Assembly: GCA_028289585.1 (NCBI GenBank)
Contig: JANQPI010000039.1
Coordinates: 1 to 34,965 of the forward strand
DNA length: 34,965 bases
Direction: 5' to 3'
Source of the DNA: Candidatus Zixiibacteriota bacterium
GTDB lineage: Bacteria; Zixibacteria; MSB-5A5; GN15; FEB-12
Positions within the stretch are counted from its first letter, which is position 1, and each line of letters starts with the position of its first letter. Below, in pieces: positions 21,166 through 34,965 of this stretch. Under the pieces are notes generated by a model. It was not told the DNA's origin. It was given only the letters and a program-made list of their open reading frames with translations, and did no database searches. Both the position numbers and the translations under genes were made by a program.

Positions 21166-21339
21166 TCACCCAATCAGAATCAACAGCCAAGATACGACCG
21201 CTCCGGCGGCAAGCGACACAACCGGACTCGGCAACCGAAACGTTGCACGTCGGCCCCCACGTGCAACGGTTGGGCTTGACTTGCAACGACACAAACTTCC
21301 ATGCCAATCGGCGTTAGTTTGGTGAAACTTTGCTGCCAT
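21166..21339 (-). CDS. 57-aa single-pass membrane protein
   Basis: Open frame from ATG 21339 to TGA 21166: MAAKFHQTNADWHGSLCRCK, a basic linker, then RLPSPVVSLAAGAVVSWLLILIG as a C-terminal membrane helix. The stop is 4 nt before the next ATG (21161). No strong Shine-Dalgarno. It fills most of what would otherwise be a 325-nt gap in the operon. The C-terminal anchor and adjacency to another membrane protein make a holin/antiholin or spanin-like pair conceivable, but that is a guess. Confidence 0.48.
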   Translation of the reverse strand: MAAKFHQTNADWHGSLCRCKSSPTVARGGRRATFRLPSPVVSLAAGAVVSWLLILIG

Positions 21340-21486
21340 AACTTGGTGCGTCGACGTAAGTTGTTAACTGGTAACGGCTTGTGCGGCTATTAAAAAATAA
21401 GCGGGTGACGGGTGGTCCTTAGCAACCGGGTTCCCTACGATTCCGACTCCCCCTATCCCCTTGCACCCCAACGGCTTACGCAATCG
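21340..21486 (-). other. Intergenic gap, no gene seen
   Basis: 147 nt with T-rich stretches on the minus strand (TTATTTTTTAAT near 21391-21402) and CGGCTT/AAGCCG flanking 21496-21475. This may be a weak terminator for the 21487 gene or a promoter for the terminase group, but no consensus-quality element is evident. Confidence 0.35.
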
Positions 21487-26546: not shown

Positions 26547-26592
26547 CCAAATGAGAAACGGCGTTCGGGTGCGTGACTCCCCGAACGCCGTT
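26547..26592 (-). terminator. Rho-independent terminator between beta-helix gene and thioredoxin gene
   Basis: Perfect 13-bp stem (26592-26580 with 26569-26557 on the minus strand), loop about 10 nt, tail TTTCTCATTT. It ends the replication operon or the candidate small RNA. Confidence 0.8.
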
Positions 26593-26613
26593 CCGAGCAA
26601 CTAACCAAGCAAC
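26550..26613 (-). ncRNA. Candidate trans-acting small RNA with antisense seed
   Basis: Predicted transcript of about 60-64 nt from the promoter at 26620-26649. Its 5' end is GUUGCUUGGUUAGUUGCU, complementary to AGCAACTAACC(C)AAGCAAC in the 5' leader of the 31952-32527 gene (18 bp, one bulged C) and partly to the leader of the DUF932 gene. It is followed by a 13-bp terminator stem and a T-containing tail. It could also be an attenuated leader for the structural operon. Confidence 0.45.
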
Positions 26614-26619
26614 GCCGGC

Positions 26620-26649
26620 ATTGTGGCAGATAGCCCGCCGTGCCGTCAA
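26620..26649 (-). promoter_or_regulatory. Promoter candidate upstream of the structural operon / small RNA
   Basis: Minus strand: TTGACG (26649-26644), 18-nt spacer, CACAAT (26625-26620). The -35 starts immediately after the stop of the beta-helix gene. A terminator lies 28 nt downstream, before the thioredoxin gene. Confidence 0.52.
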
Positions 26650-30152: not shown

Positions 30153-30878
30153 TCAGACGGCTGTCAAGAAGCGTTGGAACGCCATTGACTCCCGGGCCGC
30201 TTTGGCCGGCTGGCTGGCCTGTCGGGGCTTCATAATCTCCGTGTAAGCGTTTTGCAGACTCCAAAGCGTCCGGGGCTCGAAGTCCTCGTGTTTCGGGTTC
30301 CGCCACTCATTCACCAACGGCATCAGTTGCCGGGATGAAATCAAGCCGGACTCGAACGCCCGCAACATGATTGAATTCGCTTCGTCCCGGTCGATGATGC
30401 GACCAGACAAGCGGGCGATTCGTTGCGTGCTGGCCATGATGAACGGTTCGAGACCAGCCACGGCGGCGTCAATCCGGGTCTCGAACATCTCACGGCCGTT
30501 CAGTGTGTGCTTGGCGGCAATGTCGACTTCCCCGCCAAAGCACAGATTGGAGCAAACCAAGACACGTTCGCCCGCACAGAATTTGGCCGAGAGCGTTTTG
30601 TCCGTGGAGTTGGCCAGCCCGACGGCTACCCGGACTTCGGCGTTGATTTTGCTCTGCAAGTCGAGCGTTGCAAACATCTGGGCGCCGTCGTCGCCCTTGA
30701 TGCCAAACGCCGAATCGATGATTTCGAACCCGTGACGGTTCAAAGTCGACTCGGCAACGTCCACAACGTCGGAATGCGGGATTGGCTGCCACGTCTCAGT
30801 GGCTTCCGGAGTCGGAATCAAAGCCAAGTCGTTGCGGCTTGTCGTGGCGGCGTCGTTTTCGAGCATCAAACTTGTCAT
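30153..30878 (-). CDS. DUF932 protein
   Basis: 241 aa from ATG 30878 (GGGAG 8 nt upstream); a frame to 31172 runs through the promoter and the GGA array and is rejected. RHGFEIIDSAFGIKGDDGAQMFATLDL ... VRVAVGLANSTDKTLSAKFCAGERVLVCSNLCFGGEVDIAAKHT is the DUF932 phage/plasmid pattern. Function not established; usually in early phage or plasmid regions. First gene of the replication operon, under a promoter paired with that of the 31952-32527 gene. Confidence 0.8.
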   Translation of the reverse strand: MTSLMLENDAATTSRNDLALIPTPEATETWQPIPHSDVVDVAESTLNRHGFEIIDSAFGIKGDDGAQMFATLDLQSKINAEVRVAVGLANSTDKTLSAKFCAGERVLVCSNLCFGGEVDIAAKHTLNGREMFETRIDAAVAGLEPFIMASTQRIARLSGRIIDRDEANSIMLRAFESGLISSRQLMPLVNEWRNPKHEDFEPRTLWSLQNAYTEIMKPRQASQPAKAARESMAFQRFLTAV

Positions 30879-30942
30879 CACAGAAACTCCCGTTGCTTGG
30901 GTTGTTGTTGCTTGGCCGGCTTTGTCGCCCGCCACTGACATA

Positions 30943-30985
30943 ATGATAGCGTCAGTCGCCCCGGGGGTCAACCGTATTTGTCCCC
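30943..30985 (-). promoter_or_regulatory. Early promoter A with GGGGACAAA box
   Basis: Minus strand: GGGGACAAA (30985-30977), 5 nt, TTGACC (30971-30966), 17-nt spacer, TATCAT (30948-30943). The leader then reads ATGTCAGTGGCGGGC, closely matching promoter B. The in-frame ATG at the -10 edge is probably within the promoter and not a start. Confidence 0.78.
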
Positions 30986-31060
30986 TTTTTTGGAAATTCC
31001 CATCCACTCCGTTCCGATCCCCTCCCCTCCGTTCCGATCCCCTCCCCTCCGTTCCGTTCC

Positions 31061-31085
31061 ACTCTGTACGCCTAGAAGGAAAGCC
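31061..31085. repeat. 25-bp direct element, copy 1
   Basis: Core TCTGTACGCCTAGAAGGAAA followed by GCC (31063-31085) is identical in all four copies. Exactly five pentamer lengths long, so it keeps the array register. Confidence 0.92.
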
Positions 31086-31170
31086 TCTCCTCTCCTTTCC
31101 GCTCCCCTCCATTCCTCTCCATTCCACTCCTTTCCACTCCCCTCCGTTCCGATCCCCTCCTTTCCATTCC

Positions 31171-31195
31171 ACTCTGTACGCCTAGAAGGAAAGCC
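31171..31195. repeat. 25-bp direct element, copy 2
   Basis: Same 25 bp as copy 1, 110 bp further on. Separated by 17 NNTCC units. Confidence 0.92.
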
Positions 31196-31256
31196 GATCC
31201 CCTCCTCTCCTTTCCCATCCAATCCAACTCCTTCCCTATCCACTGCTCTCCATTCC

Positions 31257-31281
31257 TTTCTGTACGCCTAGAAGGAAAGCC
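31257..31281. repeat. 25-bp direct element, copy 3
   Basis: Core identical; the first two bases differ from the other copies (TT for AC). It follows an irregular pentamer stretch with a one-base insertion. Confidence 0.9.
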
Positions 31282-31376
31282 TCTCCCATCCACTCCGTTC
31301 CTATCCCCTCCCCTCCAGTCCCTTCCTCTCCGTTCCCGTCCCCTCCATTCCTATCCCCTCCCCTCCGATCCGCTCC

Positions 31377-31401
31377 ACTCTGTACGCCTAGAAGGAAAGC
31401 C
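31377..31401. repeat. 25-bp direct element, copy 4
   Basis: Identical to copies 1 and 2. Closest to the gene upstream in the minus transcript. Confidence 0.92.
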
Positions 31402-31458
31402 TCTCCCCTCCTCTCCTCTCCTCTCCAGTCCGCTCCTCTCCACTCCTTTCCTCTCCAA

Positions 31459-31884
31459 TCAGACCTTACGTTCCTTCAGCATCTTAAGCCGCCGTTTCAC
31501 CCGCCGTTGTTCCCGGCTCATTGACTGGGCAACTCGGGATTGAACCATTTCGGTTTCACGCTTCCTTGCCAGTTCTTCGTTATTCAACTTCGATTCGTCG
31601 ATGTCCTGAATCCGCCTGACGGACCTCCGGATGCCCCTGGCGTGAACCTCGAAGCGCTGGGGGACGTAGTCGACCGCTTCCGAATCCCTCAGTAATCGCA
31701 AGTCGCCGCCGTCTTGCCGGCAAACAATGCCCAATTGCCGTTCAATGCGCCCCCCGAGTCCCATCGCATAAAAGCTAAACGCCTGAGTTTCCCGTCCGTG
31801 CCCGCTCCATAGTTCAAGCTTTTCGGCGGGTATCACGTCCCCTTTTTTAAGGTGCGCAATCGGGGCTTCTACAACCTTTTTCAT
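31459..31884 (-). CDS. Unknown early protein, basic C-terminus
   Basis: 141 aa from ATG 31884 with AAAGGGGATACGGAC upstream. N-terminal beta part (MKKVVEAPIAHLKKGDVIPAEKLELWSGHGRETQAFSFYAMGLG) and a highly basic helical C-terminus (RVAQSMSREQRRVKRRLKMLKERKV) suggest nucleic-acid or ribosome association. Its stop is 2 nt before the GGANN array, so the array is the 3' UTR of this gene if transcription continues. No family recognised. Confidence 0.65.
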   Translation of the reverse strand: MKKVVEAPIAHLKKGDVIPAEKLELWSGHGRETQAFSFYAMGLGGRIERQLGIVCRQDGGDLRLLRDSEAVDYVPQRFEVHARGIRRSVRRIQDIDESKLNNEELARKRETEMVQSRVAQSMSREQRRVKRRLKMLKERKV

Positions 31885-31951
31885 GTCCGTATCCCCTTTA
31901 GGAGAATTGAAGGAAACCGCCCGGTTGACTGCCGGGCGGTCGTGCGGACGA

Positions 31952-32527
31952 TCAAGCAAATTCGCAACTGAAACGCCCGTATTGCGGGCGCCAGTCTGAC
32001 AGCCCGATACGGGCGCCGGCGATTTCAAACCATTCTTCGACTTGCTCCCGGTTTACTTGCTCCGGGTCAAACATAAGCTTGACCGTCAGTTTCCAGCCGG
32101 ACGGGAACAGCGGGCGAGTTCGCATTACTCGGGAAGTGCCGACTCGCACGGACTTGACCAATCGAAAGAGCGGGTCAGCCCATAGCTTTTCAACGCTTTT
32201 CGGGCCTTTGTAGTCCAAGCGAAACTTGCCGGCGATAACCAATCCCGCTTTGGCAAGCGGCCCCTCTTTTTGCTTCTTGGCGGCGGCAATCAACATTGAA
32301 TGAATGTTTTCGGCCGGCCAGCACGGTCGGCCTTCGTCCAAGTAAAGGCCGGCCTCCCACTCTTTACGGGACATTTCCTCAAAATCGTCATCCGTCTTCT
32401 TACGCTTCGAAGAAATCAACTTGATTGACTTGGCGTAAGGATTGAGCGGGTCACACAATTGCCCGTTGTGCATCAACTGTGCTTCGGTCCCCGTCAACGT
32501 ACATTCCAATTCCTCAAAAACTGCCAT
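31952..32527 (-). CDS. Conserved phage early protein
   Basis: 191 aa from ATG 32527 (AGGGG and AAAAGG upstream). LMHNGQLCDPLNPYAKSIKLISSKRKKTDDDFEEMSRKEWEAGLYLDEGRPCWPAENIHSMLIAAAKKQKEG ... SVRVGTSRVMRTRPLFPSGWKLTVKLMFDPEQVN ... IAGARIGLSDWRPQYGRFSCEF is a pattern I associate with a widespread uncharacterised phage protein (MHN..L.DP, E.GLYxD, GLGDWRPRYGRF). Role unknown. Transcribed from promoter B. Its leader is the target of the predicted antisense RNA. Confidence 0.72.
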   Translation of the reverse strand: MAVFEELECTLTGTEAQLMHNGQLCDPLNPYAKSIKLISSKRKKTDDDFEEMSRKEWEAGLYLDEGRPCWPAENIHSMLIAAAKKQKEGPLAKAGLVIAGKFRLDYKGPKSVEKLWADPLFRLVKSVRVGTSRVMRTRPLFPSGWKLTVKLMFDPEQVNREQVEEWFEIAGARIGLSDWRPQYGRFSCEFA

Positions 32528-32588
32528 TACCTTTTCCCCTGTTGCTTGGGTTAGTTGCTTGGCCGGCTTGTTGCCCGCCACTGACATA

Positions 32589-32617
32589 ACGATATTGTGA
32601 GTGACGTTGGCGGTCAA
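32589..32617 (-). promoter_or_regulatory. Early promoter B
   Basis: Minus strand: TTGACC (32617-32612), 17-nt spacer, TATCGT (32594-32589). 5' GGGGACAAA (32631-32623) is at the same 5-nt distance as at promoter A. The downstream leader ATGTCAGTGGCGGGC...AAGCAAC is also shared. Confidence 0.78.
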
Positions 32618-32621
32618 CCCT

Positions 32622-32656
32622 TTTTGTCCCCCTTTTTTGAAAATGTGGGGACAAAA
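32622..32656. promoter_or_regulatory. Inverted TTTTGTCCCC/GGGGACAAAA dyad
   Basis: TTTTGTCCCC (32622-32631) and GGGGACAAAA (32647-32656) are perfect 10-bp inverted arms, 15 nt apart, just upstream of promoter B. Candidate two-half-site operator for the ribbon-helix-helix protein. Confidence 0.58.
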
Positions 32657-32670
32657 TCAGCCAGAGCAAT

Positions 32671-32916
32671 CTAGGCAAACCGCCCCGTTGCGTCCCGTTC
32701 TTCCAAGTCCTCAAGCTTGGACCAGCCGGAAAGCCGGACGCCGTCTTGATATTTCACGTCGTGGAATATCGCTTGCTCCGGAACCGGGCCGGCTTCCGGC
32801 CCGTTGTCGAACAACCGGGTTTGATTCGGGTCTCGCTTCCAACGGTTGGCGTCCGTCTGTCCGGGGATTGACGGGAACGACGCTTTCGATTTTCGGCGTT
32901 TTTTGTTTTTTGCCAT
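32671..32916 (-). CDS. Small basic early protein
   Basis: 81 aa from ATG 32916: MAKNKKRRKSKASFPSIPGQTDANRWKRDPNQTRLFDNGPEAG ... FHDVKYQDGVRLSGWSKLEDLEERDATGRFA. Lys/Arg-rich start, then a mixed C-terminus. First gene of the early minus-strand set. No family. The longer start at 32964 has no better ribosome site. Confidence 0.55.
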   Translation of the reverse strand: MAKNKKRRKSKASFPSIPGQTDANRWKRDPNQTRLFDNGPEAGPVPEQAIFHDVKYQDGVRLSGWSKLEDLEERDATGRFA

Positions 32917-33377
32917 TGGAACGGTCCCAATCTGTGACGGACCGACGGAGCGGAACAACCCCAAGAGACTCGGGGCGAGATGAAAGCCGGACGACGCTTG
33001 CCACTCTAAGGAGTTGGGAACTCTTTAAGCGTCTTCTGCTTTTTGGTGAGCGGGTTCAGAGCGCAGCGGTCCCATACGAATATGGAACCGCTGAAACCAA
33101 ATGACTCGGAATTCTGCTTTCCGGAGCCGCTGGGCCGTCGCTGGGCTCCCGGGCTATGTTTTCGTCTAAGGCTTGACGCCATCCCCGGGATTTCCCCGGC
33201 GTCCCCCAAGCCACGTCAACCGTGACACGCAACCCTGTAGTCCGCTAGAGCGCAGGTTGCTGTGGGGTAAAAAGCCGCTCACAAAATACCCGCTCGATTC
33301 AACGCCGTGGGCGTGTCTCTCGGCCGGCAAGTTGCGGCATTTTTAGAGCGATTCTTCGGGCGGTTGCCCGCCAAGAT
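32917..33377. other. 461-nt region without a convincing gene; contains a strong hairpin
   Basis: Open frames here are short and shadow-like. The strongest feature is an imperfect hairpin at 33065-33092 (AGCGGT-C-CCATA, loop CGAA, TATGG-A-ACCGCT; one mismatch), extendable by GGTTCAG/CTGAAACC to about 33054-33096. A second small stem, AAGGAGTT-GGG-AACTCTTT, lies at 33008-33026. These may be operators, an origin element or RNA structures. Confidence 0.5.
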
Positions 33378-33406
33378 TTGTCAAACGGCGTCCGACGCTC
33401 TACAAT
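33378..33406 (+). promoter_or_regulatory. Sigma70-type promoter, plus strand
   Basis: TTGTCA (33378-33383), 17-nt spacer, TACAAT (33401-33406). One of the best promoter matches in the window. Confidence 0.7.
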
Positions 33407-33412
33407 TGCGGG

Positions 33413-33525
33413 CGCCTATCGGTAAAGCCACGGGAAGAACCTACCCCGGGACTTCTTGTTGTATCCGGCCGGTAGACACAAAAAACGCCCGCCAGACTTT
33501 CGAGTTCGGCGGGCGTTTGCTTTGT
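33413..33525 (+). ncRNA. Candidate plus-strand small RNA (about 105-113 nt)
   Basis: Between the promoter at 33378-33406 and the terminator at 33485-33522 there is no open frame of note. An internal stem (CTACC ... GGTAG, with inner CCGG/CCGG) presents GGGAC in a loop region, which includes a GGA. The terminator hairpin closes the RNA. Alternatively the unit is simply a short leader attenuating the protease operon. Confidence 0.5.
33485..33522 (+). terminator. Bidirectional rho-independent terminator
   Basis: Perfect 9-bp GC stem ACGCCCGCC/GGCGGGCGT with 14-nt loop. Plus-strand tail TTGCTTTGTTT, minus-strand tail TTTTTT from the A-run at 33479-33484. No minus gene enters from above, so the plus-strand role is likely. 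Confidence 0.85.
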
Positions 33526-33575: not shown

Positions 33576-33657
33576 CAATCTTCCCGCTGCCGTTTTCTCG
33601 TGGTAGCATGCCGGCGGTTAACCACATTTCCCCCCTAAACTCTCGGGAGCAAACACA

Positions 33658-34965
33658 ATGCGAAAATTCTTGGTTGCTTTGGTTCCGTTGGTACTGCTGG
33701 CGATTTCCGCCAGCGTGCTCGGAGACGTTCACCGAATCGATTACCAATGTGCAAAATGCGGGGAGCATCACAACCACAGCGCCGCAAGCGCCGTCCCCAT
33801 CATTCAGCGGAACGGGCAAACGTTCTTCTTGACTGCCGGCCACGTCTCCGAGCGGCCACGCCAGACGGTTTGGATTGCCGGCCGGCCCTATCCCGTGACT
33901 TGGCTGGCATTGGAGTACACCCGCAACTCGGACGGAAGCTTGCCGGATCTCGCTTTGCTCTCGGTCAAGTATTCGGGGCCAATCAAGCTAGAGCGTATCG
34001 GCAGCGTCCGGGCCGGCGAAACCGTTCTGGTTAACGGTTGGCCGGGCGGGAAGCATACGAAGCGAACCGCACGGGTTCTCCGGGTGAACGGCTGGGGGCT
34101 GACGCTCAATCAGCCAAGCAAGTCCGGCGATTCGGGCGGCGGCATTTTCAATAGCCGGGGGGAATTGGTCGGAATCACTTCGTTCACGACGCAATGGCAA
34201 ACCGGCTGTTCGAGTCATCCGCAAATGCGGAAATTTGTTTCGGATAACCGCCCGGGCCGTGGGCCGAATTTCTACCCGGAAACTTCGCCGGCCGTGCCGT
34301 CAGACGCATTGACCGCATATGTTGTGTTTTCGAAATGGTGCCAAGAGTCCAACCGGCTACAACGTGACTTCGCATCCGGACAGATTCGGGCTCCGGGCAT
34401 GCGTGTGATTTGGGTTGACTGGGATTCCCAGCGGGACAAAGCCCGCCGCATTATTCACGCAACCGGGACAACGGGCCGCACGGAAGTCCCGTTTATTGCC
34501 GTCGGTCGTGGGCAACGGGTTGCCGTCGCCGATACGGGTTACACAACGGCGAATCGATTGAATCAAAGTCTTGCCCGGTTCGCACGTCAAACCGCTACGC
34601 ATCGGAATTTACACGGCGTTCGCCGAACGCAAGACCCGTTCGATTGTGGGGCGGTCAATCTGCCGGCTGGCGGATTCTCTGCGGGTCAGTTGCCGGCCGG
34701 GTTCCAAGACGTTGAACCGCCGACGGAACCGCCGGATTGCAGTTGCCCGCCGCCGGTTGTCCCGCCGACGGAACCGCCGGGACCGCCAAACACTAACCCG
34801 ATCCCGCCGCTCCCGCCCAATTACGTTCCGACCGATGCGATTCCCGGAATTTTCGTCCCGATTGAACCGGGCGCCAGTATCCCAACGCCGCCAATCGAAC
34901 CGGTCCCGCCAGTTGACCCGCCGACGATTCAACCCGTGCCGGCGCCGCCCACAATCCAAAGCGGC
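33658..34965 (+). CDS. Exported trypsin-like serine protease with thioredoxin-like segment (N-terminal part; continues at 1-270)
   Basis: ATG at 33658 is preceded by GGGAG at 33645-33649. Across the circular junction the protein is 492 aa. Residues 1-22 are a signal peptide. A CAKC pair lies at 31-34. A trypsin-like domain follows, with His62 in TAGHV, Asp97 in DLALL and Ser159 in GDSGGG, so the triad is complete. Around residues 218-290 a thioredoxin-like segment has WCQES (Cys228, resolving Cys replaced by Ser) and a VPF cis-proline motif. A Pro-rich stretch (about 355-430) leads to a short basic C-terminus. It probably acts in the periplasm or at the cell surface. It lies on the strand opposite almost all other genes, followed by a second exported protein. 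Substrate unknown; lysis, superinfection exclusion or host-envelope modification are possible. Confidence 0.88.
   Translation, partial: MRKFLVALVPLVLLAISASVLGDVHRIDYQCAKCGEHHNHSAASAVPIIQRNGQTFFLTAGHVSERPRQTVWIAGRPYPVTWLALEYTRNSDGSLPDLALLSVKYSGPIKLERIGSVRAGETVLVNGWPGGKHTKRTARVLRVNGWGLTLNQPSKSGDSGGGIFNSRGELVGITSFTTQWQTGCSSHPQMRKFVSDNRPGRGPNFYPETSPAVPSDALTAYVVFSKWCQESNRLQRDFASGQIRAPGMRVIWVDWDSQRDKARRIIHATGTTGRTEVPFIAVGRGQRVAVADTGYTTANRLNQSLARFARQTATHRNLHGVRRTQDPFDCGAVNLPAGGFSAGQLPAGFQDVEPPTEPPDCSCPPPVVPPTEPPGPPNTNPIPPLPPNYVPTDAIPGIFVPIEPGASIPTPPIEPVPPVDPPTIQPVPAPPTIQSG
34867..34965. repeat. Terminal direct repeat, right copy
   Basis: Exact copy of 1-99, lying inside the proline-rich region of the exported protease gene. 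It shows the window is a closed circle cut arbitrarily within that gene. Confidence 0.93.

Follow-up and report, generated by a model that had tools for sequence, protein, structure and literature searches.

Antisense RNAs encoded by phages, such as OOP, sar and c4, are an established kind of regulator (PMC12197685). Lambda OOP RNA is antisense to cII, the c4 RNA found in phages P1 and P7 binds a phage mRNA by pairing around its ribosome-binding region, the P22 sar RNA is a short phage antisense RNA that limits the antirepressor, and DicF is a trans-acting prophage RNA of 53 nt whose target is the host ftsZ mRNA (PMC12197685). In the stretch of DNA analysed here (34,965 nt, referred to as the window), a candidate unit formed by a promoter-like site, an antisense stretch and a terminator-like hairpin would be, if real, a trans-encoded member of this kind.

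Like OOP, the candidate would be a short RNA transcribed from a promoter of its own and would base-pair with a regulatory mRNA of the phage. However, OOP is encoded opposite its target, whereas the candidate unit lies 6 kb away from its putative target and would pair with it through 18 bp and a bulge. The same difference applies to sar, which is encoded opposite its target region, although both would be short phage antisense RNAs limiting a phage gene. With c4 the candidate shares the pairing around a ribosome-binding region, but c4 relies on a particular fold that presents its antisense stretches in loops, and the candidate has no Rfam match. Finally, size and trans-acting base pairing are common to DicF and the candidate; nonetheless, DicF targets a host mRNA, whereas the target of the candidate would be an mRNA of the phage, and no Hfq was detected in the host.

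The element and its gene order

Bases 1-99 of the window are identical to bases 34867-34965, which makes the contig circular or terminally redundant, and on this repeat we take it as a circular contig with an element of ~34,866 bp. The contig, C5 in a genome bin of 3.15 Mb, carries genes for a terminase, a portal, a major head protein and a head-tail adaptor, which identify the element as a tailed phage. Nearly all identified phage genes are carried by the minus strand. In order of transcription, these begin with a gene of the phrog_4652 family (function unknown; 31952-32527, ATG 32527), followed by DUF932 (ATG 30878), a replication-initiation-like gene and RusA, and continue with a beta-helix-like gene (27771-26650; weak match to the right-handed beta-helix), a thioredoxin-like gene (26534-26145; Pfam match below threshold) and the structural genes.

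Some features outside this series were also observed. A plus-strand frame at 33650-34965, in an element whose genes are otherwise mostly on the minus strand, probably runs across the circular junction and has a trypsin-like GDSGG motif (by eye). Dense CCGTAN/CCGTCG-type repeats at 2350-2930 lie within minus-strand frames and would be translated as glycine-rich repeat proteins. Also, upstream of the terminase region, an apparently noncoding gap of 280 nt (21174-21452, minus strand) could be a packaging site or an RNA, and contains a 10-bp hairpin at 21268-21241 with the tail TTTCGGTTG.

The promoter-hairpin unit and its antisense match

Directly 3' of the stop codon of the beta-helix gene, the minus strand carries the promoter-like sequence TTGACG-N18-CACAAT (26649-26620), with TTGACG at 26649-26644, CACAAT at 26625-26620 and a TGN extension at the latter; 9 of the 12 hexamer positions match. 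Taken alone, this match is at chance level, five such sites being found in 15 kb against 5.2 expected. It is followed by the stretch GTTGCTTGGTTAGTTGCT (26613-26596, 18 nt), the putative 5' end and seed of the RNA, and then by a perfect hairpin of 13 bp with a loop of 10 nt, AACGGCGTTCGGG-N10-CCCGAACGCCGTT (26592-26557). The original prediction had placed a terminator within 28 nt of the promoter and expected an RNA of about 60 nt, and the coordinates agree with both, the gap from the -10 box to the stem being 27 nt and the predicted RNA ~58-60 nt for a +1 near 26613.

No perfect hairpin in the element is stronger than this one, and no other perfect stem there reaches 11 bp, while shuffled sequence gives on average 0.43 stems of at least 10 bp per shuffle. 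Moreover, the combination of promoter and hairpin occurs once in the element and in 0 of 30 dinucleotide-preserving shuffles. The hairpin is followed by TCTCATTTGGGG, or by TTTCTCATTT (7 T in 10) when counted from the last G-C pair, and hairpins of at least 11 bp in the calibration sample, a 300-kb stretch of the host chromosome, have comparable tails (for example TTTCTTTGTG and TTTTCTATCT). Hence, it is credible as a terminator of minus-strand transcription, the orientation that produces the antisense sequence, and not of plus-strand transcription. Its terminator score is positive, and, judged from sequence alone, the 3' end has the feature of an intrinsic terminator. The hairpin ends ~12 nt before the Shine-Dalgarno (GGGGAG) of the thioredoxin-like gene, and because of this proximity the unit may be the attenuated leader of the 26534 gene or the terminator of the preceding gene. 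Another T-tailed hairpin between genes, with a 9-bp stem and the tail TTTCCTTCAA, is found at 31916-31940 (minus strand).

The seed is complementary over 18 bp, with one bulged C, to AGCAACTAACCCAAGCAAC (32559-32541) in the leader of the 32527 gene, a stretch that abuts the Shine-Dalgarno AGGGG at 32540-32536; the match and its position are thus as originally described. Both partners are on the minus strand, so the candidate is not cis-encoded in the manner of OOP. In predicted folds, seed and target are each partly self-structured.

How unusual this complementarity is depends on where it is sought. Since 3 of 50 random 60-nt segments have an equally good antisense partner somewhere on the minus strand, such a match is ordinary across the element, where seven distinct 18-nt antisense pairs with one indel exist. 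The best predicted duplex of the seed is with the 32527 leader (-31.4 kcal/mol), and a coding-region site at 8240-8217 is nearly equal (-30.7 kcal/mol); as low an energy is reached by 15% of random genome 22-mers, and 2.7% attain as high a fraction of their own maximum. When 48 gene leaders are scored, none of 9000 phage and none of 9000 host random 22-mers equals the match of the seed, a test picked after the fact that needs a look-elsewhere discount. By cofolding, the 32527 leader is the first of the 48 (ddG -20.8), and 2% of random 22-mers equal the seed against their own best leader. The pairing is therefore remarkable only in that it joins the 5' end of the sole promoter-hairpin unit to a leader, a combination noticed post hoc.

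Duplicated leaders, competing readings and possible mechanism

The homologues in L002 and G070 (49% and 38% identity, respectively) begin at nearly the same residue, each with its own Shine-Dalgarno, which makes ATG 32527 the likely start and would leave the target stretch untranslated. A longer reading, in which the leader would encode the N-terminus (the frame is open from ATG 32586), was rejected because the homologues begin at the start that bears the Shine-Dalgarno, and also because the phrog_4652 match begins at residue 5.

The leader itself has a copy. DUF932 and phrog_4652, two unrelated early genes, share a duplicated promoter and 5' leader with 80% identity over 75 nt, the duplicated regions extending over 30878-30996 and 32527-32642 (minus strand), and in both an open frame leads from an ATG just past the -10 box to the main start. 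Conservation between the copies is higher 3' of the promoter than in the promoter spacer. The 32527 promoter is TTGACC-N17-TATCGT (32617-32589), and the conservation of the hexamers TTGACC and TATCRT between leaders whose spacers differ gives both promoters better support. The shorter complementarity ascribed to the DUF932 leader (9 plus 6 bp) was recovered at 30912-30892 as AGCAACAACAACCCAAGCAAC; however, being part of the paralogous copy, it lends no independent support, and DUF932 was discarded as a second independent target on this ground and because its interaction energy falls inside the background. A 26-nt match in the host to the DUF932 promoter region lies inside a host coding gene and was taken as chance.

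On balance, the reading we favour, with a probability of roughly 0.4, is that the phage encodes a base-pairing RNA of ~60 nt, predicted from sequence features, which would lower expression of the phrog_4652 gene. It is nearly as likely that the hairpin serves, between the beta-helix and thioredoxin-like genes, as an ordinary intercistronic terminator or attenuator that tunes the downstream genes, that the promoter-like site is either fortuitous or belongs to the thioredoxin-like gene, and that the seed match is coincidental. The short distance to the Shine-Dalgarno of ATG 26534 fits such an element, as does the similar T-tailed hairpin from 31916 between the 31952 and 31459-31884 genes; moreover, promoter-like sites are no more numerous than chance allows, and an 18-bp antisense match somewhere in the element is to be expected. 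Nonetheless, this match sits exactly at the 5' end of the only promoter-hairpin unit and on a leader, unlike those of random 22-mers. The layout of a base-pairing small RNA that had been proposed for this locus is thus borne out in part: the promoter-like site, the 5' seed, the terminator-like hairpin, the target next to a Shine-Dalgarno and the first rank of the 32527 leader agree with it, whereas the intercistronic position of the hairpin, the element-wide expectation of antisense matches and the origin of the DUF932 match by duplication weaken it. The predicted self-structure of seed and target, the nearly equal binding of the coding site, the absence of the unit from the distant relatives and the lack of a detected host Hfq also speak against it.

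There are also two lesser explanations. The paired repeat AGCAAC-N6..9-AGCAAC is found at only three places on both strands of the window, the seed site and the two duplicated leaders, and all three adjoin promoter-like sites, as would be the case if they were DNA sites for a phage regulator near three promoters, one of them inverted, with no RNA pairing involved. This is improbable, given that the spacing of the repeats varies (6, 7 and 9 nt), that a single duplicated leader accounts for two of the three sites, and that the sites lie inside the leaders and not over the promoters. The restriction of the paired repeat to these three places also speaks for the base-pairing RNA. Slightly less probable still is a real small RNA that acts mainly on host mRNAs or elsewhere, the 32527 match being incidental; the almost equal binding of the coding site at 8240-8217 would agree with it, but the 32527 leader tops the phage leaders in the ranking.

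If the favoured base-pairing RNA exists, transcription would begin near 26613 and stop at the hairpin, and the 5' end of the RNA would pair over 18 bp with the phrog_4652 leader immediately 5' of its Shine-Dalgarno. These features lead us to infer the transcript and its 5' end, as well as intracellular pairing and the direction of its effect. The duplex would most likely block loading of the 30S subunit and invite duplex cleavage, leading to less early-gene expression. In the predicted fold of the leader, the CCC of the target pairs with the GGG of the Shine-Dalgarno, and because binding of the RNA would sequester this CCC, both repression by occlusion and activation by unmasking of the Shine-Dalgarno are possible; we consider repression likelier, since the duplex abuts the ribosome site. 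Partial read-through of the hairpin may express the thioredoxin-like gene, so that the RNA could double as the leader of that gene. A more specific version, which we regard as doubtful, is that a trans-acting small RNA at the boundary of the replication and structural modules is made from a late-module leader by attenuation and controls an early gene in a host without Hfq, either by shutting it down or by unmasking its ribosome site.

Hfq is a common helper of trans-encoded base-pairing small RNAs, and it is not required by them. No Hfq (PF17209) was detected by a Pfam model search of the host genome, which is 99.6% complete; this lack is compatible with an 18-bp antisense interaction and does not exclude it. 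Also, Rfam covariance models gave no match at gathering score in the window and nothing near that score in the region of the unit. Were the base-pairing reading correct, the locus would constitute an RNA-based circuit controlling an early gene in a phage of a host without detected Hfq, would extend control of the OOP, c4 and sar type to a trans arrangement inside one phage, and would illustrate how an attenuated leader RNA can act in trans.

Relatives and noncoding arrays beside phrog_4652 genes

Close relatives of the element were absent from viral contigs (queried with the beta-helix protein, phrog_4652, the terminase and DUF932), genome contigs (phrog_4652 and terminase), phage records (megablast) and 132 genomes of the phylum (phylum, order and relatives searches), the nearest terminases having 41-44% identity. 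In the distant relatives, L002 and the G070 phage, the leaders differ from those of the window, and there is no counterpart of the promoter-hairpin unit, no match to the seed and no comparable antisense partner. The exact seed pattern occurs in 17 stretches of viral contigs, of which a few are estimated to arise by chance, and nothing marks these stretches as relatives.

A further observation concerns the noncoding stretches adjoining phrog_4652 genes, which in four elements contain degenerate arrays with a period of 5 nt. Literature searches retrieved no description of such arrays beside phrog_4652 genes, and neither L125/L126 nor 300 kb of host chromosome contain any. They are located at 30996-31456 (minus strand) in the window, at 9769-11829 in L002, at 31863-33513 on the minus strand of L109+L110 (G070:C463), and upstream of the phrog_4652 match in L144. 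The unit is GGANN in the window and in L002, GGCNN/GGTNN in G070:C463 (runs of 10-37 units) and GACNN in G070:C145 (by eye). A repeated sequence, CTTTCCTTCTAGGCGTACAGA, separates the runs in the window.
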